Assembly: GCF_030717995.2 (NCBI RefSeq)
Contig: NZ_CP157743.1
Coordinates: 3,250,501 to 3,314,500, forward strand
Direction: 5' to 3'
Source: Methylomarinum sp. Ch1-1
Lineage (GTDB): Bacteria > Pseudomonadota > Gammaproteobacteria > Methylococcales > Methylomonadaceae
DNA: 64,000 nt
Position numbers and translations under genes: made by a program. This document shows positions 8,374 through 27,797 of the stretch, piece by piece. Position 1 is the stretch's first letter, and each line of letters begins with the position of its first letter. The notes beneath the pieces were generated by a model. It was not told the origin of the DNA and ran no database searches. It saw nothing but the letters and a program-made list of their open reading frames with translations.

Positions 8374-9699
8374 TTATAGCCAGTTCATGTCGATGCCCTG
8401 TTGCGGAAAACGCCGCAGCAAATGAGCCAAGACCAAATCATGTAAGCTTTTGATTTTAATCTTATTGACCATCTCGTTGGCGAATGCGAAAGTAAGCATG
8501 TTGCGAGCCGTCTCTACATCGATGCTGCGCGATTGCAGATAAAAAATCGATTTTTCATCCAATTGCCCTACCGTCACACCGTGAGCGCATTTTACATCAT
8601 CGGCATAAATTTCCAGCTGCGGCTTGGTATCCGCTTCCGCATCATCGGATAGCAATAAATTCCGATTATTCATTTCCGAATCGGTTTTCTGCGCATCCTC
8701 GGCGACAACCACCCTACCTTGAAACACGCCTCTAGACCGCTGAGCCAATACACCTTTATATTGCTCACGGCTGATACCATGAGGTTTTAAGTGATTGATG
8801 CGGGTATGATTGTCCAGATGCTGACGCTTGCCGCCCAGATACAGGCCGTTCAAATCGCATTCCGATGCGACGTCCAGATCGCTGTGTATGTCATTTCGAG
8901 CCAACAAGCCGCCAAAGGCAAAGTTGTCGTGGCGAAAACGACTGTCACGGGCCTGCTTCACATAAGTACCGCCAAAGTGATAAGCCTTGTCTGATTCGGT
9001 CTGCATCTTATACAGGGTCAGGCCGGCATTCTCGGCGACAAACACCTCGCTCACCGTCGCGGTCAAATAGGCTTGGTCGGCGCCGACATAGGTTTCGATG
9101 ACTTGCGCTTCCGCCATGGCGTCGACAACCAGCAAATTTCGCGTCGTCGCCAACAATTCCGGCTGACTCACCACATGCAATATCTGCAACGATTTAGTCA
9201 ACGTTGTTTTCGCCGGCACATGAATGAAGATCCCGTCGCTGAACCAGGCGCCGTTAAAGGCGACAAAACCATGTTCGGTATGCGCGACCGCTTGCCCAAG
9301 ATATTTCCTAACCCGTTCAGCATCGGTCTCCAGCGCGTCGGCCATGCCGATCACCGTCACCTCGTCGGCCATGCCTTCCAAATCGGACAACTGCGGCGCG
9401 AAACGCCCATTGACCAACACGACCGTCCAGGCATCTTGCAAACGATGCTTTTCTATCTCGCTGGCATCGATTTCGGCTGAATCCGCGGTAAGCACCGACG
9501 TAAAACGTTTTTTCTCGATGGCCGAAACATTGGTATAGCGCCATTCTTCCTCATGTATCGAGGGAAAACCGCGTCCGGAAAACTCCGTCAATGCCTCGGC
9601 GCGAAAATCCCGCAGCCAGGACAGCGATTGTCCCGGGAGTTGTTCGACAATGTCTTGAAAGTCCGCCGTATAACGGTTGATTGCTTGCTCCACGCTCAT
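8374..9699 (-). CDS. sufD: FeS assembly scaffold subunit SufD
   Basis: SufD pairs with SufB and the SufC ATPase to form the SufBC2D scaffold on which iron-sulfur clusters are made. The 441-residue protein has the SufB/SufD beta-helix region and the family C-terminal block, including DDVKCAHGVTVGQLD and FYLQSRSID. Its start overlaps the end of sufC by 1 bp, which supports tight coupling. Confidence 0.96.
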   Translation of the reverse strand: MSVEQAINRYTADFQDIVEQLPGQSLSWLRDFRAEALTEFSGRGFPSIHEEEWRYTNVSAIEKKRFTSVLTADSAEIDASEIEKHRLQDAWTVVLVNGRFAPQLSDLEGMADEVTVIGMADALETDAERVRKYLGQAVAHTEHGFVAFNGAWFSDGIFIHVPAKTTLTKSLQILHVVSQPELLATTRNLLVVDAMAEAQVIETYVGADQAYLTATVSEVFVAENAGLTLYKMQTESDKAYHFGGTYVKQARDSRFRHDNFAFGGLLARNDIHSDLDVASECDLNGLYLGGKRQHLDNHTRINHLKPHGISREQYKGVLAQRSRGVFQGRVVVAEDAQKTDSEMNNRNLLLSDDAEADTKPQLEIYADDVKCAHGVTVGQLDEKSIFYLQSRSIDVETARNMLTFAFANEMVNKIKIKSLHDLVLAHLLRRFPQQGIDMNWL

Positions 9700-10448
9700 T
9701 ATGCCGCCCGCTCTTCAATCCAGCTATAACCTTTTTCTTCCAGCTCCAGCGCCAGTTCCGCTCCACCGGACTTGACGATTTGACCATGCGCCAGAACATG
9801 GACGAAATCCGGCTTGATATAGTCCAATAAACGCTGATAATGGGTAATCATCAAGAACGAGCGCTCTGCCGAACGCAGCGAATTAACACCGTCGGCGACG
9901 ATCTTCATCGCATCGATATCGAGACCGGAATCGGTTTCATCTAGTATGCAAAGCCTGGGCTCCAACACCGCCGCCTGCAGGATTTCATTACGTTTTTTCT
10001 CGCCGCCGGAGAAACCTTCATTGACGGCGCGGTATAAAAACTTTTCATCCATCTGCAGCAATTCAACCTTGTCTTTGACCAAGGCCAGGAAATCCATCGC
10101 ATCCACTTCACTCAAACCACGATATTTGCGGATCGAATTCAAGGCCGCTTTAAGCAGATAAATATTGCTGACACCAGGAATCTCGACCGGATATTGAAAG
10201 GCGAGAAAAATGCCTTCCCGAGCACGTATTTCCGGGTCTAGTTCCAGCAAATTCTTACCTTGATAGCTAACCGAACCCTCGGTCACCGTGTAACCGGATT
10301 TTCCCGTCAGGACATGAGATAACGTGCTTTTTCCGGCCCCATTAGGTCCCATGATGGCATGCACCTCGCCCGGATTGATCTGTAAGTTCAAGCCCTTCAG
10401 AATGGCTTTATCATCGACATTAACGTGAAGATTTTCTATGCTGAGCAT
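9699..10448 (-). CDS. sufC: SUF ATPase SufC
   Basis: SufC is an ABC-type ATPase that powers conformational change in SufBC2D; it is cytoplasmic and not a transporter. The 249 residues carry Walker A (GPNGAGKST), the ABC signature in its SufC form (GFSGGEKKRNEI), and Walker B (LCILDETDSGLDID). It lies between sufB (91-bp gap) and sufD (1-bp overlap). Confidence 0.98.
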   Translation of the reverse strand: MLSIENLHVNVDDKAILKGLNLQINPGEVHAIMGPNGAGKSTLSHVLTGKSGYTVTEGSVSYQGKNLLELDPEIRAREGIFLAFQYPVEIPGVSNIYLLKAALNSIRKYRGLSEVDAMDFLALVKDKVELLQMDEKFLYRAVNEGFSGGEKKRNEILQAAVLEPRLCILDETDSGLDIDAMKIVADGVNSLRSAERSFLMITHYQRLLDYIKPDFVHVLAHGQIVKSGGAELALELEEKGYSWIEERAA

Positions 10449-10539
10449 TTGTTTACCTGTTTGTTAGTGTGTCGGGTCATATCCACGCGGCCAATTCTTG
10501 CCTTAGGGTAAACCCGAGCTAAATAATCGTTGCAATAAG

Positions 10540-11988
10540 TTAACCGACAGCCCCTTCCAGGCTGATGCCTAACAAGGCCTGCGCCTCAACGGCGAATTCC
10601 ATCGGCAGTTCCTTGAAGACTTCCTTACAGAAGCCATTGACGATCATCGACACGGCATCTTCGGCGGACAAACCGCGCTGCTGACAGAAGAACAACTGGT
10701 CTTCACTGATCTTCGACGTGGACGCCTCATGCTCGACCTGGGCCGAAGGCTGCTTGACCTCGACATAAGGAAAAGTATGCGCACCGCAGCGATCGCCTAC
10801 CAGCAACGAGTCGCACTGGGTATAGTTGCGGGCGTGCCTGGCGTTTTTACCGACTTTGACCAGGCCGCGATAGGTGTTTTGCGCCTTGCCGGCGGAAATA
10901 CCCTTGGATACGATGGTGCTGCGAGTATTTTCTCCGATATGAATCATCTTGGTTCCGGTATCGGCCTGCTGCAGATTATTGGTCAACGCGACCGAATAAA
11001 ATTCACCCACCGAATTGTCGCCTAACAGCACACAGCTGGGATATTTCCAGGTAATCGCCGAACCGGTTTCAACCTGGGTCCAGGAAACCTTGGAATTAAC
11101 GCCCCGGCATTCCGCCCGCTTGGTCACAAAGTTGTATATACCGCCTTTGCCGTCTTTATCGCCCGGATACCAATTTTGTACCGTGGAATATTTGATCTCG
11201 GCATTGTCCAAGGCCACCAATTCAACCACCGCGGCATGCAACTGATTTTCATCACGCATCGGTGCGGTACAGCCTTCCAGATAACTGACATAACTGCCTT
11301 CGTCGGCAATGATCAAGGTGCGCTCAAACTGGCCGGTATTGGCGGCATTGATGCGAAAATAGGTGGACAGCTCCATCGGACAGCGTACGCCTTTGGGTAT
11401 GTATACGAACGAGCCGTCGGTAAACACCGCCGAATTCAGTGCGGCAAAGAAATTATCGCCCGGCGGCACGACGGTGCCCAAATATTGTTTGACCAGCTCA
11501 GGATATTTAATCAAGGCTTCGGATATCGGACAGAAAATCACTCCCGCCTCGCTAAGCTTGCCTTTGAACGTCGTCGCCACTGATACGCTGTCAAAAACGG
11601 CGTCCACGGCAACACCGGCCAAGCGTTCCTGTTCATCCAACGGAATGCCTAGTTTCTTATAGGTCTCCAGCAGCTCAGGGTCAACTTCATCGAGACTTTT
11701 CGGTCCATCATCTTTTCTCTTCGGCGCCGAATAATAACTGATCGCCTGATAATCGATCGGATCGATATTCAGCTGCGCCCAATCCGGTGACGTCATCTCC
11801 TGCCAATGCCGAAACGCCTGCAATCGATATTCCAGCATGAACTCCGGTTCTTTTTTGACCAAAGATAGTCGACGGATAACCTCCTCATCCAAGCCAGGCG
11901 GAAAAGTATCCACTTCCAGTTCGGTCACAAAACCCTGTTTGTACTCCCGATCGATCAGTTGCTCGATTTCTTGTGTACTTGATGACAT
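10540..11988 (-). CDS. sufB: FeS assembly scaffold subunit SufB
   Basis: SufB is the main scaffold subunit for nascent iron-sulfur clusters. About 482 residues cover the full family, with blocks such as [26 protein letters not shown] and [12 protein letters not shown]. An upstream GTG at 11994 is in frame, but the ATG at 11988 is preceded by TAAGAG at a reasonable distance and gives the usual N-terminus. It is the first structural gene of the suf operon, 17 bp after the Rrf2 regulator. Confidence 0.97.
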
Positions 11989-18169: not shown

Positions 18170-19195
18170 ATGAGTAAAATGTCATCTAAGAGTTACCCTC
18201 AAATATGGAGTGATTCAATCTCCGCCGTGATGTACCTTTTCATTTTTTGGGCTATTGCATTTCCTGTTGACGCAACCGAGATGCCACTCAAGAAAGCTTC
18301 CCTGATGCCGCTTTGGGAGCCATAGGCGCAGTTCGCCGGTTATTATGTGGCGCTCGACAAAGGCATCTATGCCAGGCATGGCATTGATCTAACGATTCTC
18401 AGGGCTGGCCCCGGCCATTCTCCCGTTGACGCGCTGCAGAAAGGCGTCGCCGACTTTGCCATTTTGTGGTTGACGTCCGCCCTACGGCATCGTACTGCAG
18501 GGACTTTACTGGTGAACTTGGCTCAAACCAATCAACGTTCGTCGATGCTGCTGATTGCAAAGAAGACATCCGGAATCAACGCCATTGCCGACATGGACGG
18601 CAAAAAGGTAGGGCTATGGGAAGGAGAAGTATCTATTCCGCCTCGCGCCTTGTTCGCCAAACACCACATTAAGATTCACGCAGTGCGTCAGTCGCATACC
18701 GTCAATCTGTTTCTGCGCGGCGGCATCGATGTGACCTCCGCGATGTGGTTCAACGAGTATCATACGATTATTAATTCCGGCATCGATCCTGAGGAGTTAA
18801 ACGTCTTTTTCCTCAGAGACCAAGGCATGAACCTTCTGGAGGATGGGATTTACGCGCTGGAAAACACAGTTTCTCTTGACCCCGAGCTGGCGACGGCATT
18901 CGTCGAAGCTTCGTTGCAGGGATGGCGCTATGCCTTTGATCATTCCGACGAAGCGCTGGATATCGTCATCGATTACATGCAAAAAGCTCATTTACCCGCC
19001 AACCGAGTTCACCAGCGATGGATGCTCGACCGAATGCGGGATCTGATGATGCCTGCCGACACACAAACCAGACTCGGCGAATTGCGGGAGCAGGATTACG
19101 AGGCCGTAGGCCGCACCATGCAAGAACAAGGCCTGATCGGCGACTATCCCGATTACAATGCCTTTGTCTGGAGGACCGATGCCGAGGAAAAGTAG
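18170..19195 (+). pseudogene. NMT1/TauA-like ABC substrate-binding protein, interrupted by one amber codon
   Basis: The frame encodes a signal peptide (hydrophobic YLFIFWAIAFPVDA) followed by a periplasmic binding protein of the NMT1/THI5/TauA type: LMPLWEP, then AQFAGYYVALDKGIYARHG and a full second lobe. A single TAG at 18323-18325, codon 52, replaces what is normally glutamine (PQAQFAGYY), a one-base change from CAG. Everything after it stays in the same frame for about 290 codons without other damage, so the mutation is recent, suppressed, or a sequencing error. Such proteins bind small organic ligands. The gene overlaps the next by 17 bp and probably supplies ligand input to it. Confidence 0.8.
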
Positions 19196-21137
19196 CATCG
19201 CCGCCAGACTCGTTCTGGTCATCACGCTGTTCAGCGCTATCATCTTTTCTGTGACGCTCGGCTACAACTATTATCGATCCCGTACCATCCTGCAGCAAGA
19301 GTTGGAAAGCAACGCTCGCAATCTCGCCATGTCAATAGTCTATCGTATAGAGACTCAGCTAACGGCGGTTGCCAAAGTGGCGGAAGGGATGGCGCGCTCA
19401 TTGGAAGTTAACGAGCATAAGAAACAGCAGCTACTGACGCTGCTCAAAACCACTGTCGCAGACAATCCCGAGATATATGGCTCGGCCGTCGCCTTCGAAC
19501 CCTATGCCTTCAGCACCAATGAGCGTCTCTATGCGCCCTATTATTACCGGAAAAACGGGACAATTAGCTTTGAACGGTTGGAAGTTTCCTACCAACACTT
19601 GCCATACCTATACTGGGATTGGTATCAGATACCCCGTGAGTTAGGCGAACTCGAATGGAGCGAACCTTATTTCGATGAAGGCGCCGGCAACATTCTGATG
19701 TCGACCTGTTCGGTTCCGTTTTATAAGCACGGCGATGACGAGAAACAACTCCAGGGTATCGTAACTGCGGACATTTCTCTCGAAGCCCTGACCGAATACA
19801 TTAGTTCGGTCAAAATCCTCAGGACCGGCTACGCGGCCCTGCTTTCCCGCAACGGCATGGTGCTGGCTCACCCGATGAAGGACGCCATCATGAACGAAAC
19901 CTTTTTCAGCATTGCGGAGGGACGCCATGACACTTCGCTGCGGGAACTCGGCAAAAAAATGGTCAGGGGCGAGTCCGGTTTCGTCCATTACACCAGCTTG
20001 GTCGGCATTAACAGCTGGTTGTATTACACGCCGATCCCTTCGACCGGCTGGTCGTTGGCCGTCGTCTTCCCGGAGACAGAGCTACTGGAAAATGTTCGCA
20101 AATTGAGCATGACCATGGCGTCGATGGGATTCGTCGGGATATTGCTATTGATTCTGGCAGTCATTTACATTGCCAAGACGATCGTCAAACCTTTGCAATT
20201 ATTGACCGCGGCGACCGATCAGATCGCGACTGGAAACTTCGAGGTTGCATTGCCGATGCCGAAGTCGAATGACGAAGTGAGCGTATTGACTCACGATTTC
20301 CAGGTCATGGAGCAATCTTTGAAGGAATACATCAAAAACTTGACCGAGACCACGGCGGCCAAAGAACGCATTCAGAGCGAGCTCAAGGTTACGACCGATA
20401 TTCAGGCGAGTCTGTTGCCACGCATCTTTCCGCCCTTCCCCGATCATCCCGAATTTGAAATCTACGCATCGATGGTTCCCGCCAAAGAAGTCGGCGGCGA
20501 TTTCTATGACTTCTTTTTCATCGACGAGAACAATCTCTGCTTTCTGATTGCCGACGTTTCCGACAAGGGCGTTCCCGCCGCCCTGTATATGATGGTGGCA
20601 AAAACCCTGCTGAAGACCGAAGGGCAGCGTCTAGGGGAACCGGACAAGATTTTATCTTCCGTCAACACCATTCTTGCGGCGGACAATGAAAGCTGCATGT
20701 TTACGACGGTATTCTGCGCTATCCTCGACATAACCAGCGGATACGTTCGCTTCGCCAATGCCGGCCACAACCCGCCGCTGATTACCGATTCACGGGGCGC
20801 ACGATACCTGAAGCCGAAGCCGGGCTTGATGCTGGGGGCGATGGACGACACGGTCTTTGTAACCGAACAACTCCAATTAGAACAGGAAGGCCTCCTGTTT
20901 CTCTATACCGACGGTGTGACCGAGGCAAAAAATCCATCAGAGGAACTTTTGGGTGAAGAGCGCTTGCTGAATGCGTTGCAATCCGCCCCTGATACAAACG
21001 TGATGCACATGGTCCATTACATAGGTTCGGAAGTCGCTCGTCATGCCGACGGGGCTTCCCAGTCGGACGACATCACGATGTTAGCGATAAAAATGGCAAA
21101 GAAGCCGCCGGCTACTATACGCAAGGAGAATAGATGA
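19179..21137 (+). CDS. Membrane-bound sensor phosphatase: Cache-like, HAMP and SpoIIE/PP2C domains
   Basis: The 652-residue protein has an N-terminal membrane helix (about 7-32), a periplasmic sensor of about 270 residues of Cache type, a second helix (about 310-335), a HAMP linker (about 336-390), a short coiled coil and a SpoIIE-type PP2C phosphatase (about 415-645) with VGGDFYDFF, DVSDKGVPAAL, FANAGHNPP, YTDGVTEAKN and SDDIT. Such enzymes dephosphorylate STAS anti-anti-sigma proteins. The start at 19179 follows GGAGG by 4 bp, so the upstream in-frame start is not used. It overlaps the binding-protein gene and the next gene (ATGA type). A STAS gene lies 6 kb downstream. Confidence 0.9.
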   Translation: MPRKSSIAARLVLVITLFSAIIFSVTLGYNYYRSRTILQQELESNARNLAMSIVYRIETQLTAVAKVAEGMARSLEVNEHKKQQLLTLLKTTVADNPEIYGSAVAFEPYAFSTNERLYAPYYYRKNGTISFERLEVSYQHLPYLYWDWYQIPRELGELEWSEPYFDEGAGNILMSTCSVPFYKHGDDEKQLQGIVTADISLEALTEYISSVKILRTGYAALLSRNGMVLAHPMKDAIMNETFFSIAEGRHDTSLRELGKKMVRGESGFVHYTSLVGINSWLYYTPIPSTGWSLAVVFPETELLENVRKLSMTMASMGFVGILLLILAVIYIAKTIVKPLQLLTAATDQIATGNFEVALPMPKSNDEVSVLTHDFQVMEQSLKEYIKNLTETTAAKERIQSELKVTTDIQASLLPRIFPPFPDHPEFEIYASMVPAKEVGGDFYDFFFIDENNLCFLIADVSDKGVPAALYMMVAKTLLKTEGQRLGEPDKILSSVNTILAADNESCMFTTVFCAILDITSGYVRFANAGHNPPLITDSRGARYLKPKPGLMLGAMDDTVFVTEQLQLEQEGLLFLYTDGVTEAKNPSEELLGEERLLNALQSAPDTNVMHMVHYIGSEVARHADGASQSDDITMLAIKMAKKPPATIRKENR

Positions 21138-22612
21138 AAAAGGCAATACCGATCTTGATGATCTTGCTGGCGACCGTTGTGTTTTTCAGCGGATGCAGAA
21201 AAAACGAAATCGTCATCAGCCGTTTCGATGATGCAAAACAAGCAAGAATCGGGGTTATGACCGGATCCACCGGTGAAGCCATCACGCTCGTAAGATTTCC
21301 TCAGGCTCAGGTCAAAAGCTTCGACGACATCATGGATGCCGTCGCTGCAATGAAATCCGGACAATTGGATGCCATCGTGACGGCATTTCCCGCTGCGCTT
21401 CAGGTGTCGAAAAAGAACCCGGAATTCACCGTGTTGTCCGAACCGCTAGCTCACGAAAATACCGCGATTGCGGTCAGGAAAGGCAATGACGAGTTACTCG
21501 CCACGTTGAACCGACTCATCGATGAACTGAAAAATGACGGCACGCTCGCTTCGATGAAAAAGCGCTGGTTCAAACCGGATTTAAGCCCTTATATAGAATT
21601 AAACATTACCCTGCCGAGCGAAGGGAAGCCGCTCAAAATAGGGGTCAGCGCGACACGGGAACCGTTCAGTTTTGTCGACAAAAACGGCAGGGTCAGCGGT
21701 CATGACGGTGAATTTGCCCGAATTATCGGCGCCAAACTGCAGCGTCCGGTCGAATTTTACAACATGAAATTCATGGCGCTAATCCCTGCCCTGCAATCGG
21801 GCAAGGTCGACATCATCGTCACCGGCAAGACGGCAACCCAGGAACGCAGTCAGTTTGTCGATTTTACCCAGCCGTATTACGCCAACGCTCAAGTGATGCT
21901 GGTTAAACGAGCGCCATCAACCGGGTTCGCCGACGACCCGAAAACAACGCTCAAGCAATCGGTAAAACTTTCCTCCGTCGCAAACCTGGAAAACAAGCGC
22001 ATCGGCGTGCTGCTGGGCTCGGCTCACGACACCTATGCTACCGAACACTATCCCGATGCGACGATTCTTCAATACAAGTCCCCGGCCGATGTCGCGTTAG
22101 CGGTCAAGACCGGCAAGGTCGACGCCGCATTGTACGATGCCGAGCCGCTACGCGAAATCATGCGTCATGACGAAAGTTTGGCTTTGCTGGGCGGCTCCTT
22201 GTTCGACTTTGACGTAGCAGCCGGATTCAACAAAAACAATCCGCAACTCAGGAATCGGTTCAATGAATTTCTGGCACAGATCAAGCAAAACGGCGTTTAC
22301 GCCGACATGCTGCGGCGCTGGATGGAAAGACGCGATACCCAAATGCCTGTTATCGAAAACAGCAAAAACAATGGCGTTCTGGTCGTCGGTGTCAGCGACG
22401 CGGGGATGCCGTTTGTCGCGCTTCAAGACAACCAATGGGTGGGCTTCGACATCGAGTTATCGAAACGATTCGCGGCCTATCTCGGCAAAAAAGTAAAATT
22501 CAACAACATGGATTTCGGCAGCTTGATCGCCGCCGTCTCCACCGGCAAGGCCGACATCATTATCAGCTCAATCTATGTCACCGAAGAAAGAAAAAAACAA
22601 ATCGAGTTGTAA
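21134..22612 (+). pseudogene. 5' part of a giant multi-binding-domain ABC transporter fusion, split by IS66
   Basis: This part has a lipoprotein signal (lipobox FFSGC), an incomplete amino-acid-type solute-binding module (about 35-160), a complete SBP_bac_3 module (about 165-420) and the first half of a third (about 425-490). It stops at a codon formed by the IS66 insertion. Joining 21134-22608 to 24287-25796, which removes the IS and one 8-bp repeat, gives an uninterrupted frame of 995 codons and rebuilds QIEFSNPYF, matching RIDFSEPYF of the next module. Without the permease this fragment could at most act as a free binding protein. Confidence 0.88.
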
Positions 22613-24278
22613 TTATTCAGACACCCTAACAATTGGCAAGGCCGGTACCGGCAAGCCTGACCGCTGACTTGCGATCACTTGTGCCAAATAAATCCACGGT
22701 GACTGATTTCTTTTGCGGCAGGTTTCAATGACGCTGATTAAAATAGCGAACACACGCGTCCCATTTTCCGAGCGCGTGCCATAGCAAATGCCGCGTAAAA
22801 TAACCCAGTGGCGCAACGCTCGCTCCGCTTCATTATTCGTTAAGGGCTGATGCGGTTGATCCAGAACTTGAAAAATAGCTGTCCAGTCATTTAGCATTTC
22901 CGTGGCTAATGCTGCTGTTTTCTTATGTTCATGGGTTTTCATTTGTATACACATCTGCTGATAGAGCAGTAATTGCAGGCGATAAGTTTCAGAAAGTGGC
23001 GTATCAGGTGGTGTTATTCGCGCTTTGCGTACCGCACCTATCAACACAGCCAGTAAATCGTGCGTTTGTTGACCAAAAGCTGGGCGTCTCTGTTTAAGCT
23101 TTCATTGAGCCCTTTCGCTTTACGCAGAAGATGAGCCCAGCAACGTAACCGACTCAGATATTTGCGATAAACCGTGTAGCCATCGCTCATTAACCAACCA
23201 TTAAAGTCGTCGCCTAAAAGATTTTCCAATAATTCAGCGCTACGCGTAGCAATCCAATAGGCTGTGACGCGATTCGTACTGAACACCCATAACCAAAGAA
23301 AAGTCGTGTGCTCCATCCAGGAGGTTTCGTCTACATGCAGCAATTCGCTGTTAATGATTTCTTGTGCAAACTCATCTTCAAGCGGCATAGCCGCTGCGCC
23401 ACTTTCATGCAGGGTATTATTGATGGTGCCAACACTTAATTTAATACCTAACCAGTCATATAAAAATTCCTGAATACGCTCACGCGATAGGCGCATACGG
23501 TAGGCAAGACAAACAATCATTGCTGCCAGTCCAGGCCCCACTAAACGCCATTCAGTTCGGCTAATACCCGGCAATTGAGCATGACTGCTACGACTGACTT
23601 CTTTGCGCGTGATATGTCCATTGGCGCACACTACTTCATAGAGTGTGCTTGGTATGGGTGACTAGAATGCCTGGATGCTCAACATCGCCCCATTCGACAT
23701 TGATTGTTTCATACGCGGCATAGGCGATAGCATGACGCGGCTCTAATGTTTGATGGCAGCAGGCACATATTTCAGGGTAATGATCTTGATAGTGGGTAAT
23801 GGCTAGCTTTTGTGTCCGGCCAAAGCCTTGTGCGCCTGGTTGTTTGCCGGGTTTGCGGGGTTCTTGATGTTCATTGTTAGGATCAGCGGACTGTTGCTGA
23901 TCTTTTTTAGAAGGCGACGGGGGGGTGACGGTGTCTTCCGTTTCAGCAGACTTATCGATCTCCGTTTGTTCTTGATCGTTTGTATTATCTGTAGCTGCTT
24001 TATCCCAAGGCGCTTCGCTGCTAGGTGGACGAGAGCTGTTGCGCGAATTTTGGCTTAAGCGCTCACGCGCTTCTTTTAGGTCGTTAAGTAACTTAATCGA
24101 TAGGTAACGTAATTCCTCTTCCGGTAAATTGAGAAGCTCGTCTTCATCGATTTGGCTTAGGTCCTGGTTACTGAGTTGCATGGGATAAATACTAAGGCTT
24201 CTTAATGGATTTGTACAATGTTCTTGTGTCGGTTTGTCAATTATTTTGTATTTTCAGCTAGGGTGTGTGAATACTTAC
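22609..24278 (-). mobile_element. IS66-family insertion sequence, transposase-only type
   Basis: The element is 1670 bp. The left end GTAATTATTCAGACACCCTA and the inverted right end GTAAGTATTCACACACCCTA agree at 18 of 20 positions. It is flanked by a perfect 8-bp direct repeat ATCGAGTT (22601-22608 and 24279-24286), the duplication size of IS66. Only the tnpC-type transposase is encoded, with no tnpA or tnpB, as in the ISBst12 subgroup. Its end sequence resembles the ends of the short repeats at 27854, 28333, 30103 and 54285. Confidence 0.93.
22613..24181 (-). pseudogene. IS66 transposase (TnpC), two frameshifts
   Basis: The transposase is read in three pieces: 24181-23636 (N-terminal coiled coil, a proline-rich stretch and a zinc-binding CACC region), 23631-23041 (DDE core including LLHVDETSW and the MSDGY motif) and 23047-22613 (PLTNNEAERALR and the C-terminal block). 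The first shift is near 23635, where HTKHTL stops but the next frame continues YEVVCANGH. The second is near 23085, where AFGQQTHDLLAV continues in another frame. IS66 tnpC is not known to need frameshifting, so this copy is probably inactive, or the sequence has errors. Confidence 0.85.
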
Positions 24279-24286
24279 ATCGAGTT

Positions 24287-25796
24287 TTCCAATCCCTATT
24301 TCAAGATGGGCACCCGCGTCTTTGGGCTGAAGAGAAACGTCGCCACCGACAAACTGATGACGGTCGCCGATCTCAACGACAAGCGCATCGGTGTGTTGTT
24401 GGGATCGGTCTATGATACCTATGCGACCGAGCATTACCCAGAAGCCGAGATTCTGCAGTACAAATCGCCGTCCGATCTGATATTGGCGGTCCGATCCGGC
24501 AAGATCGATGCCGGTATTTATAACCGAGCGAATTTGATTCAAATCTTCCACAAAGACAAGGAATTAGCTTTATTGGGAGACCCCGTGCTGTCCATTCCGG
24601 TCGGCATGGGCTTCAACCGGGACAATGACGGCTTGCGGGAGCAATTCAATGCCTTCCTGAAACAAATACAAGCGAACGGCGTGTTGGATGACGTGGTGAA
24701 TCGCTGGATCGAACAAGGCGATAGCGTGATGCCTGAGATCGCCAATGCGGGTAGCAATGGCGTACTGGTGGTAGGGACCGTCAGCGACAAAGGGCTACCC
24801 TTCGCCGTCATTCAAAACAACGAATTGATCGGTTTCGATATCGAATTGGCCGAGCGCTTCGGCGCCTATCTCGACAAAAAAGTCGTATACGCCGACATGG
24901 AATTCGGCAATCTGATCGCCGCCGTCTCTTCCGGTAAGATCGACATGATCGACAGCACACTGATGATCACCGACGAGCGCAAGACCCGAATCGATTTTTC
25001 CGAGCCTTACTTTGACCTAAAGGCCAGCGTCTTCACTCTAAAGAAAAACCTGGCCGCCTACGACAGCTCGTCTAATATAGCGACGATATCCCCAGCCTTC
25101 CTTACCCGCGTCGCCGACAGTTTTTACAGCAACATCATCCACGAGCAACGCTACTTATTGATCTGGGACGGACTGAAGACCACTGTGGTCATTTCGATCT
25201 TTGCGACGCTGTTCGGGACCCTGGTCGGCGCCTTGGTCTGTTTCATGCGAATGTCGAAACGCACGGTTTTGAACTTGCCCGCTAGAATCTATATCAACCT
25301 CCTGCGCGGCATGCCGGTATTGGTTCTGTTGATGCTGATCTTCTATGTCGTGTTCGCGTCGGTCAATATCAGTCCGGTGCTGGTCGCCATCATCGCCTTC
25401 GGCCTGAATTTCGGCGCCTATGTCTCGGAAATGTTCCGCACCGGCATCGAAAGCGTCGACAAAGGCCAGACCGAAGCCGGCATGGCAATGGGGTTCACGA
25501 AGCTACAAACCTTTATCTTCATCGTGCTGCCGCAGGCCGTGCAGCGTATTTTACCGGTTTACAAGGGGGAATTCATTTCCTTAGTCAAGATGACGTCTAT
25601 CGTCGGCTACATCGCAGTGCAGGATTTGACCAAGGCCAGCGATATCATTCGCGCCCGCACCTTCGACGCTTTTTTTCCGCTGATCATGGTGGCGATCCTG
25701 TACTTCGTGATTGCCTGGGTGCTGATGCTGTCTTTGGAATATCTGGAACGGATTACCGATCCCAAATATAAGCGGCTTAAAGGAAGCAAGGCATGA
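24287..25796 (+). pseudogene. 3' part of the multi-binding-domain ABC transporter fusion: binding modules plus permease
   Basis: After the IS66 end the frame resumes with the second half of the third binding module, a short fourth module (VLVVGTVSDKGLPF to about FTLKKNL) and a polar amino-acid type permease (about 230 residues). The permease has the conserved inner-membrane loop (GIESVDKGQTEAGMAMGF) and several helices. The frame opens at 24234 inside the IS, but that start lacks a signal peptide, so correct membrane insertion of the binding modules is doubtful. The stop overlaps the ATPase gene by 4 bp. Fusions of binding domains to a permease are known for glutamine and histidine family importers; this many modules is unusual. 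Confidence 0.88.
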
Positions 25797-26881
25797 TCAA
25801 GGTAGAACATCTGTCCAAAAAATTCGGCGATCTTGTCGTGCTGAAGGACATTACCACCGAAATAAAAACCGGGGAAGTCGTCTCGATCATCGGTCCTTCC
25901 GGCACCGGCAAAAGCACCCTGCTGCGCTGCCTGAACTTGCTAGAAACACCTAGCGGCGGCACTATTCAAATTAATGGCCAGGATATGTTGGATAAGAAGA
26001 CCAATGTCGCCAAAATACGCCAGAAGATGAACATGGTGTTCCAATCGTTCAATCTGTTTTCCCACCTGACGGTGCTGGAAAACCTCACCATCGCGCCGAT
26101 CAGGCTTAAAGGGATAAGCAAGCAAGACGCCCGGATAAAAGCGCTCGAACTGTTGCGCCTGGTCGGATTGGCCGAAAAAGCCGGCAGTTATCCGGACGAA
26201 CTTTCCGGCGGCCAGCAACAACGCGTGGCCATTGCCCGCTGTCTCGCTATGGAGCCGGAAATCATCCTGTTCGACGAGCCGACTTCGGCGCTGGATCCGA
26301 CCATGGTCAGAGAAGTGCTGTCGGTCATCCGTCGCCTCGCCAAGGAGGGCATGACGATGGCGATCGTCACCCATGAAATGGATTTTGCCCGTGACGTATC
26401 GAACCGGATCTTGTACATGGACGAGGGGATCATCTACGAAGACGGACCGCCGGAACAGATTTTCGATAGCCCGTTAAGGGAAAAAACCCGGGCTTTCATC
26501 AACAGGGTCCGCAGCTACAGCTGCCAGATCAGTTCGCCCGATTACGATCTGTATGCAATGAATGCCGAAATCGAGGCCTTTTGTGAAAAGCAGATCCTGC
26601 CCAAGAAAAGCCGATACAATTTGCTGCTATTGGTGGAGGAATTGCTGCAAATCTATAATCCTTATCTGCGCACGATCATTCTGGATATGACCATAGCCTA
26701 TTCGGAAAAGAACGAACGCCTCGAAATTATCTGTGAAAGTAGCGGAGAGGAAGGTAATCCGCTCGAAAGTTCGAGTTTAACCGATGACCTGGGCCTGATG
26801 ATTATTAAGAATTTGACGGAAAGCATTGAATATAGATGGATCGACGGCAAAAACCGATTACAATTGCTGCTTAAGACCTAA
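25793..26881 (+). CDS. Polar amino-acid type ABC ATPase with a C-terminal RsbW-like ATPase domain
   Basis: Residues 1-240 are a standard importer ATPase: Walker A GPSGTGKST, signature LSGGQQQRVAIARCL, Walker B IILFDEPTSALDP, and the switch THEMDF. Importer ATPases of this group normally end here at about 240-250 residues. The extra about 120 residues resemble an anti-sigma-type histidine-kinase-like ATPase (LLLLVEELLQIYNPY as N-box, DDLGLMIIKNL as a G-box-like turn). The gene overlaps the transporter fusion and lies upstream of a STAS gene, so a link between transport and partner switching is proposed. The second domain is assigned from pattern only. Confidence 0.85.
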   Translation: MIKVEHLSKKFGDLVVLKDITTEIKTGEVVSIIGPSGTGKSTLLRCLNLLETPSGGTIQINGQDMLDKKTNVAKIRQKMNMVFQSFNLFSHLTVLENLTIAPIRLKGISKQDARIKALELLRLVGLAEKAGSYPDELSGGQQQRVAIARCLAMEPEIILFDEPTSALDPTMVREVLSVIRRLAKEGMTMAIVTHEMDFARDVSNRILYMDEGIIYEDGPPEQIFDSPLREKTRAFINRVRSYSCQISSPDYDLYAMNAEIEAFCEKQILPKKSRYNLLLLVEELLQIYNPYLRTIILDMTIAYSEKNERLEIICESSGEEGNPLESSSLTDDLGLMIIKNLTESIEYRWIDGKNRLQLLLKT

Positions 26882-26928
26882 CGATCATGGCGCTTGAGCG
26901 CCACCCTAGCATCAAGTGCCTGATCGTT

Positions 26929-26955
26929 CCCTGGCCCTCTCCCAGAGGGCCAGGG
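26929..26955. terminator. GC-rich hairpin after the ABC ATPase gene
   Basis: CCCTGGCCCTCT and AGAGGGCCAGGG form a perfect 12-bp stem with a 3-base loop. No T-run follows, so it may be a processing or REP-like structure rather than a rho-independent terminator. A weaker nested hairpin (AACGATCA with TGATCGTT) precedes it at 26880-26928. Confidence 0.4.
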
Positions 26956-27010
26956 AGATTAAGGGGCCGCTTCGCGACTTTCATAGTAAACACGCATAAG
27001 AACAACGTCC

Positions 27011-27346
27011 ATGGATTTGCAGACCACCATAGAAAATAACGCCACCATCGTAACAATCAGTGGCAGGCTGGATGCGGTAACAGCCCCTGAGTATGAAAAA
27101 AGAATCCGAGAAATGATTACCAGCGGCACTACCGACTTTGTCGTGGACTTTGCACGACTCGATTACATCAGCAGCGCAGGCCTTCGGGCTCTGCTGCTGA
27201 TGGCCAAGCTGCTGAAGGAAAAAAACGGCAATGTCTGCTTTGCCAACGTCAATGGCAACGTCCGCTCGGTCTTCGAGATGTCCGGCTTCGCGTCCCTTTT
27301 CAAGATGGAAAATTCCGTCGCCGAAGCGCTGGCGACACTCACCTAA
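27011..27346 (+). CDS. STAS-domain anti-sigma factor antagonist
   Basis: The 111-residue protein is a single STAS domain of the SpoIIAA/RsbV type. The phosphorylation motif DYISSAGLR has the likely regulatory serine at residue 54 or 55. In partner switching, the RsbW-like kinase phosphorylates this serine and a SpoIIE-type phosphatase removes the phosphate; both kinds of partner are encoded nearby. It ends 19 bp from the convergent RsbW-like gene. Whether the final target is a sigma factor or another protein cannot be seen here. Confidence 0.93.
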   Translation: MDLQTTIENNATIVTISGRLDAVTAPEYEKRIREMITSGTTDFVVDFARLDYISSAGLRALLLMAKLLKEKNGNVCFANVNGNVRSVFEMSGFASLFKMENSVAEALATLT

Positions 27347-27365
27347 CTTAAGGTCTTCTTGGGCT

Positions 27366-27797
27366 TTATACCTTACTTTGATGAGGTAAGCGCTTGTGCA
27401 GCACGATCAAATTTCCAGTGCCGTCATAATACGCGTGGACATCGTCCATAATTTTCTTAACCAAGTGTATACCGAGACCGCCGATCGGGCGATCGTTGAT
27501 ATCCTGGTCCAGCTTAGGCGCCGGGACTTGTACAAACGGGTCAAATGGCGGCGCATCGTCTTTGAGAACAATCTCCAAGCATTCCGCCGTACTGTTTATT
27601 TGCACGTGAATAAACCGGTCCGAGGCTCCGTTTAGGCCGTAAGTGATGGTGTTGGTAATCAACTCTTCCAGGCACAAGTTGACAGAGAACGCCAGATCCC
27701 GATCGCTAAGCACGTTGTTGACAGCATCGGCCAGAGTCTCGATTTCTTCGAGTCTTGAAGGGACCTGGTAATCCAGCAACACTTTCTTAATGTGCAC
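27366..27797 (-). CDS. RsbW-like anti-sigma factor serine kinase
   Basis: The 143-residue protein is a stand-alone GHKL ATPase of the anti-sigma type: N-box EELITNTITYG (about 44-54), G1 DDAPPFDP (about 79-86) and G2 GGLGIHLVKK (about 105-114). It would phosphorylate and bind the STAS protein encoded convergently next door. No sigma factor gene is close, so its output partner is unknown. Confidence 0.92.
   Translation of the reverse strand: MHIKKVLLDYQVPSRLEEIETLADAVNNVLSDRDLAFSVNLCLEELITNTITYGLNGASDRFIHVQINSTAECLEIVLKDDAPPFDPFVQVPAPKLDQDINDRPIGGLGIHLVKKIMDDVHAYYDGTGNLIVLHKRLPHQSKV

Follow-up and report, generated by a model that had tools for sequence, protein, structure and literature searches.

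A putative partner switch beside an ABC importer whose ATPase carries an RsbW-like, pseudokinase-type domain

Partner switches are known for controlling sigma factors and some other regulators. A 64,000-nucleotide stretch of the Methylomarinum sp. Ch1-1 genome (NZ_CP157743.1, positions 3,250,501 to 3,314,500; here the window) holds a locus of six genes at 18170-27797 that is predicted to encode a complete partner switch beside an ATP-binding cassette (ABC) importer. An initial annotation, made from the DNA alone, had named the six genes with their domains, and all of them are present with those domain calls. The importer is of the polar-amino-acid type, and its ATPase ends in an extension that is most likely a pseudokinase. 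The reading that we favour, with confidence a little short of even, is that the partner switch gates the importer through docking of its STAS protein on this pseudokinase domain, the effector being the importer and not a sigma factor.

The importer ATPase gene (25793-26881) joins a GlnQ/ArtP-type ATPase domain to a HATPase_c_2-like C-terminus, and 75 non-duplicate ATPases bearing this extension were compared after removal of L029, L033, L036 and L047 (duplicates of L018, L019, L020 and L022). The contig-cut L022, L043 and L089 were left out of the alignment (A1), identity and tree work. Walker A residues G39, K40, S41 and T42, the LSGGQ signature, D161-E162 and H194 are invariant in 72 of 72 aligned sequences; the domain has the motif residues of an importer ATPase. 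The five solved ATPases listed, of which ArtP is the nearest, cover residues 1-239 only, up to the start of the extension. By profile, the extension is RsbW-like and of GHKL type. Singly, 53 of the 75 extensions match Pfam HATPase_c_2 at E <=0.01 (best 7.8e-9), with the window's own at 25.2 bits, under the curated cut-off of 27.4. Compared with the free RsbW-like kinases, the extension profile aligns over 118 columns with a probability of 97% and an E value of 6e-11; as controls, 30 column shuffles reach at best 1% and E 0.056, and the reversed profile 2.9% and E 0.016. The same profile against the STAS profile gives E 0.08, and none of the matches to solved structures is convincing (best E 0.46). 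A GHKL fold at this C-terminus had been proposed initially and is backed by these comparisons, which were made at the level of sequence.

The residues of the ATP site are largely gone from the extension. The N-box Asn is absent at positions 284-288 in 75 of 75 extensions, where the alignment has a gap opposite the kinase Asn, and the aligned G1 position 316 is Asp in none; D[DE]xG replaces GGxG in 53 of 75, and the N-box Glu is kept in 73. We also considered the extension as an active kinase and judged this unlikely, since every member lacks both the Asn of the N box and the Asp aligned with G1. The initial annotation had spoken of a 'kinase or decoy domain', and the missing residues oppose the kinase half of that description.

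The proteins of the predicted switch itself keep their catalytic sites. The window phosphatase matches Pfam SpoIIE with E 2.7e-48, and among 25 aligned sequences D448, D466 and D585 are invariant and D637 and D638 are kept in at least 90%; we take these Asp residues to be those of the metal site. Ser54-Ser55 of the STAS protein is kept in 31 of 31 aligned sequences, giving a phosphorylatable Ser whose phosphorylation is predicted. The free kinase, whose nearest solved relatives are RsbW and SpoIIAB, has E45, N49, D80, G106, G107 and G109 invariant in 22 of 22. These sets were reached from 33 STAS hits by dropping L030 (a near copy of L018) and L025 (a paralogue), and from 25 RsbW-like hits by dropping L025, a 65-residue piece of L079 and a permease of L042; SpoIIE hits in L017, L025, L044 and L056, the second one in L019 and the SBP1 hit in L028 were dropped as well. 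The free kinases differ, 12 of the 21 others being 20-27% identical to the window's and 9 being 64-83% identical, and L045 and L060 have a sensor domain of a different kind. Sensor and kinase thus vary and STAS and importer stay, which we count in favour of docking on the importer. The paralogous stretch L025 (L025:328-7774; G000:C2 from 1350000) belongs to the same genome as the window and holds a second pair of STAS and RsbW genes with a PAS-SpoIIE phosphatase; no extension-bearing ATPase stands beside this pair.

Within the window's order, 9 of 201 genomes carry the extension. Among named genomes it turned up in 70 loci, spread over several phyla, in a scan that used the window's extension as query and so found close relatives only, with both distant forms and STAS-less forms under-counted. 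Sampling across the phylum gave the extension, and STAS with it, in 1 of 398 genomes, the window's own; the trait is rare and patchy across the phylum. Among viral contigs, 18 pattern matches contained no relative. Contig-end-cut loci aside, the ATPase lies near SBP_bac_3 or permease genes. With a reach of 9 kb for the NMT1-type binding protein (SBP1) and SpoIIE and of 4 kb for STAS and RsbW, the 75 loci hold SBP1 in 19, SpoIIE in 25, STAS in 32 and RsbW in 23 cases, and SBP1 is accompanied by SpoIIE in 19 of 19. In the 40 loci whose sequence reaches 7 kb or more upstream and 4 kb or more downstream of the ATPase, STAS is present in 16 and all four genes are missing from 22. All four stand near the importer in 14 of 75 loci, the window included; homologues of the set thus do occur together elsewhere, which bears out the initial proposal on this point. 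Among these 14 loci, 11 show a 4-bp overlap of the permease and ATPase genes, and STAS comes 1-54 bp after the ATPase in 12, the others being the window (129 bp) and L017 (about 1.9 kb). Because the gene set recurs in other genera and phyla it is more than chance; gene content varies between lineages. The window's long ATPase-STAS gap (26882-27010; merely 1-54 bp in most relatives) carries a very stable double hairpin (-60 kcal/mol, z -7.4), and the 27-base core of this hairpin occurs a single time in the genome when up to one mismatch is allowed.

The 122 neighbouring proteins scanned contain 164 Pfam families, and the 25 commonest of these include no recurring output gene or sigma factor; the search did not extend to targets elsewhere. 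The neighbour scan skipped 13 of the 75 loci and covered 122 of the 193 proteins collected; among the remainder are the enzymes beside L066 and L075, which were scanned apart, and the murein-recycling-like genes at these two loci are treated as a lead only. A metabolic theme was also sought and rejected, no family occurring in more than 7. Near some importers of the order of Trichlorobacter thiogenes (L104:8511-16081, L105 and L106) there is a NagZ-like hexosaminidase, joined in L104 and L106 by a DUF819 protein and an enzyme resembling L-Ala-D/L-Glu epimerase; the three assignments are under the curated NCBIfam cut-offs and hint at cell-wall peptide uptake.

STAS and extension also go together across whole genomes. 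In the window's order, STAS proteins of 174-187 bits occur in 7 of 201 genomes, every one an extension carrier, which gives 7 of 9 carriers against 0 of 192 non-carriers (next best 110 bits); these same loci contributed to the STAS profile, which lifts their own scores but does not account for the absence elsewhere. The two STAS-less carriers have a distant extension (40 and 42% identity). In the order of T. thiogenes (Geobacterales), STAS was found at E 1e-34 in 14 of 16 carriers against 12 of 125 non-carriers (Fisher p 1.3e-10, uncorrected for kinship and in an order chosen for holding carriers), and G224, one of the two STAS-negative carriers, has a match at 8.5e-33. The two genes are at most 1.2 kb apart in 4 of the 14 STAS-positive carriers and 17-33 kb apart or on different contigs in the other 10. 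For the 43 loci without a near STAS, 29 genomes were searched and 6 hold the protein elsewhere, at 151-171 bits, the next best genome reaching 114 bits. Of these six STAS genes, that of L098 has SBP1, SpoIIE and RsbW alongside it and that of L101 has SBP1 and SpoIIE; RsbW accompanies those of L097 and L100, and the one of L099 lies next to a second extension-bearing ATPase. The sixth, in a Geobacter genome (L096:3777-5495), is fused to an ATP-grasp ligase that resembles dapdiamide synthase.

The domains, the missing ATP-site residues, the conserved catalytic and phosphorylation residues, the recurrence and the co-occurrence are thus all predicted or counted from sequence, and to them we add by inference the binding of STAS to the extension, the sign of its effect and the ligands. 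In the mechanism proposed here, SBP1 and the phosphatase's Cache domain would sense an external ligand, the SpoIIE domain would dephosphorylate the STAS protein and the free RsbW-like kinase would phosphorylate it. Unphosphorylated STAS would dock on the pseudokinase domain of the ATPase as on a kinase and would change the activity of the pump, which would make the importer the effector in place of a sigma factor. Docking on the ATPase as the output is suggested by the conserved catalytic sites, by a domain without an ATP site and by the finding that no output gene recurs among the commonest neighbours; that the extension falls by profile within the STAS-kinase family yet lacks the ATP-site residues also counts for it. 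The initial annotation had let importer occupancy set the phosphorylation state of STAS, and the opposite direction fits at least as well. More tentatively, the same could hold for a whole class, a partner switch with transport as its direct output in which the phosphorylation state of STAS gates ABC transporters through a captured pseudokinase domain, in importers that also have permuted SBP_bac_3 modules.

Several observations weigh against docking on the importer. No such STAS is known for 37 of the 75 importers (23 genomes searched whole, 14 at the locus only), and these nevertheless keep the extension. Of the 125 non-carrier genomes of the Trichlorobacter order, 12 hold STAS; in the 7 of them inspected, SpoIIE adjoins it in 5 (among them G748, with a largest fetched contig of 4.0 Mb), with SBP1 as well in 3 of these, and STAS must therefore serve some purpose where this importer is absent. 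The same order has 7 genomes, 6 of them carriers, in which STAS precedes genes for TolC and a PAS-HlyD protein (L097, L100, L107, L109, L110, L118 and L120; RsbW in 6 of 7 and a MacB-type ABC pair in 6 of 7, the exporter families being named from single representatives), so that its target may differ. Position 315, beside the aligned G1, is Glu or Asp in 71 of 75 extensions, so that the pocket could be preserved in part, and 17 of 75 have Asn at position 289; both points count against loss of the ATP site. Last, the ratio of extension to ATPase branch length at the tips is 1.73 with STAS and 1.92 without (permutation p 0.24, fixed tree). A faster decay of the extension without STAS, hinted at by pairwise identities, was accordingly dropped, the tip-branch contrast not being significant; over all branches the ratios are 1.57 with STAS and 2.02 without, given here with no significance test, and the contrast comes mainly from one clade of 12 Chlorobiaceae, whose ratio is 2.63 where the other STAS-less tips have 1.71.

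An explanation that we regard as unlikely takes the extension for a self-standing domain of the ATPase, regulatory or dimerising, whose binding partner is a small ligand or its own twin, with STAS and SpoIIE as neighbours that share expression and nothing more. The importers that keep the extension in the absence of a known STAS of this kind count for it. The C-terminal domains of MalK, MetN and ModC are analogues, D252, F263, L269 and E305 of the extension are invariant in the 72 rows of alignment A1, and the varying gene content of the lineages points the same way. On the other side stand the co-occurrence of STAS and extension even when the genes are unlinked, and the membership of the extension in a STAS-binding family. 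We give somewhat less credence still to the importer as the sensor, for which MalK holding MalT is the model: the extension would hold STAS when the pump is idle and free it during transport, reporting nutrient flux to a STAS target elsewhere. The direction is that of the initial annotation, a decoy taking the place of the kinase. An extension without ATP-site residues would suit this role, and the presence of the same STAS without the importer means that it has another target; however, no output gene or sigma factor recurs among the commonest neighbours within the scope given above, and the locus already has sensors of its own in the Cache phosphatase and the binding protein. That the extension binds and activates the SpoIIE phosphatase as RsbT does RsbU, pump state then setting STAS dephosphorylation, is very improbable: activation of a PP2C phosphatase by a GHKL protein has a precedent in the available part of PMC12143880 and SpoIIE lies within reach in a third of the loci (25 of 75), but it is out of reach in 50, some through contig ends, and STAS is near more often.

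The importer class is set apart by its binding modules too. The lipoprotein-permease fusions start with the second half of an SBP_bac_3 domain, continue with 0 to 3 full modules and end with a first half before the membrane domain. Scripted scoring placed lobe 2 before lobe 1 in 49 of 49 complete fusions and likewise in 27 stand-alone binding proteins of 242-283 residues; four more fusions were cut, broken or unclear, and 23 permease frames have no module. The sole canonical order is that of L055, a protein of 477 residues from another transporter, one without the extension. For one stand-alone protein (L065:7675-8454) solved structures confirm the permuted order: its residues 166-259 pair with 10-103 of 4zv1 (AncQR) and its residues 27-147 with 107-231, and 6svf gives a like alignment. 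The SBP_bac_3 modules of this class are thus predicted to be circularly permuted, both stand-alone and, where they are fused to the permease, in arrays of one to four units; the arrays can also be read as repeated permuted units and look as if they had grown by whole permuted units. Several solute-binding modules fused to a permease had been noted initially, correctly as to modules and permease, with the permuted order and the splitting of the gene missed. A motif search in 14 loci found a conserved Arg with a varying partner residue in the binding modules, which suggests amino-acid-like ligands that differ between modules. Neither permuted SBP_bac_3 proteins nor this gene set are described among the literature matches listed, most subscription journals being outside the coverage, or in the available parts of PMC8256260, PMC3223731 and PMC1262709.

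In the window the system is not intact as it stands, the initial annotation having missed both a TAG in SBP1 and an insertion sequence (IS) of the IS66 type (Table 1). The SBP1 frame from ATG 18170 is stopped by the TAG at 18323-18325 after 51 codons, just beyond the presumed signal peptide. The frame beyond it has a possible start at 18347, but one without a signal peptide; this open frame (18347-19195) matches PF09084 with E 1.6e-30 and was aligned with its relatives. The lipoprotein-permease gene is split by a 1,670-bp IS66-type element with similar ends and an 8-bp duplication, ATCGAGTT, whose transposase reads on the minus strand in three frames. The 3' end bases of the first lipoprotein-permease frame (21134-22612) fall inside the element, and the open frame of the second part begins within it, at 24234, and ends at 25796. 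Counting that of the window, the genome has 12 full-length copies of 1,670-1,673 bp, 100% identical after rounding. The claim that all genes from the binding protein to the ATPase overlap therefore survives in part: the 4-bp overlaps of SpoIIE with the lipoprotein gene and of permease with ATPase are real and recurrent in relatives, and the insertion breaks the lipoprotein-permease gene between them. The earliest possible start of the phosphatase is 19158, with an alternative in-frame ATG at 19179.

Table 1 Features of the locus in the window (positions counted from the first nucleotide of the window)
Feature	Coordinates	Strand	Description
SBP1	18170..19195	+	NMT1-type periplasmic binding protein gene, in-frame TAG at 18323-18325
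Membrane phosphatase	19158..21137	+	dCache sensor, HAMP, SpoIIE/PP2C
Lipoprotein-permease gene, first part	21134..22612	+	Half module (lobe 2), then a full SBP_bac_3 module and the beginning of another
Target-site duplication ATCGAGTT, left copy	22601..22608	+	Read directly
IS66-type element	22609..24278	-	PF03050, DUF6444; three transposase-like frames
Target-site duplication ATCGAGTT, right copy	24279..24286	+	Read directly
Lipoprotein-permease gene, second part	24279..25796	+	Module remainder, half module (lobe 1), BPD_transp_1 permease
Importer ATPase, ATPase domain, residues 1-239	25793..26509	+	GlnQ/ArtP type; Walker A, signature, Walker B and H-loop residues
Same ATPase, C-terminal RsbW-like domain, residues 242-362	26516..26878	+	ATP-site residues missing
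STAS protein	27011..27346	+	Conserved ISS(A/V/T)GLR site; TIGR00377 above cut-off
Free RsbW-like serine kinase	27366..27797	-	N, G1 and G2 boxes intact

Damage is also seen in the nearest relative, which is of the same genus (L017, G157). Its SBP1 and lipoprotein-permease frames are open; its SpoIIE gene lies in two frames and a transposase-like frame of 545 residues, assigned by eye, stands between ATPase and STAS (L017:3321-4958 and 9146-11118). Two other genomes of the genus gave no match to the extension. Given the broken genes of the window, the damaged relative and these two genomes, the locus looks to be decaying in this genus, and since two of its genes are broken the system as drawn probably does not work in Ch1-1. 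Loci with all six frames open are found elsewhere, for example L026, L028 (Methylobacter marinus A45) and L034 (Nitrosomonas communis).

Parts of the system resemble well-described ones. The RsbU-RsbV-RsbW and SpoIIE-SpoIIAA-SpoIIAB switches have the same PP2C phosphatase, STAS protein with a conserved Ser and GHKL serine kinase with intact boxes, whereas here no sigma factor is among the commonest neighbours and a second kinase-like domain, without an ATP site, sits on the importer ATPase. The phosphatase is of the same HAMP-SpoIIE membrane type as the biofilm phosphatase SiaA, its best NCBIfam match, at 75.2 bits against a cut-off of 700. GlnPQ and ArtP importers share the ATPase, the permease and the SBP_bac_3 modules, and GlnPQ, according to the available part of PMC8025302, likewise has tandem binding domains linked to its permease; the modules here differ in their circular permutation, with lobe 2 before lobe 1, and the ATPase in its extension beyond residue 239. 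A natural permutant is described in the accessible part of PMC4990184, the glucose-binding lipoprotein TpMglB-2, which is a single binding protein of the Type I sugar-binding class, in contrast to the SBP_bac_3 arrays fused to a permease here. MlaB-MlaF gives a precedent for the action of STAS on an ABC transporter's ATPase, since there too a STAS protein is tied to an ABC ATPase with a C-terminal extension (PMC7367683, in the part available). Unlike that pair, the present locus has a kinase and a phosphatase, an ATPase of GlnQ/ArtP type and an extension that is a whole RsbW-like domain, and the window STAS scores 18.7 bits against the MlaB model (cut-off 90) and is not of the MlaB family.

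If true, a pseudokinase on an importer ATPase would extend partner switches to the direct control of membrane transport. As far as the available part of PMC7367683 goes, the MlaFB authors left the control of MlaB by phosphorylation open, and the loci described here would offer a natural system in which to test such control of an ABC ATPase by a STAS protein. The permuted modules would be a further test bed, for the docking of binding proteins on permeases.

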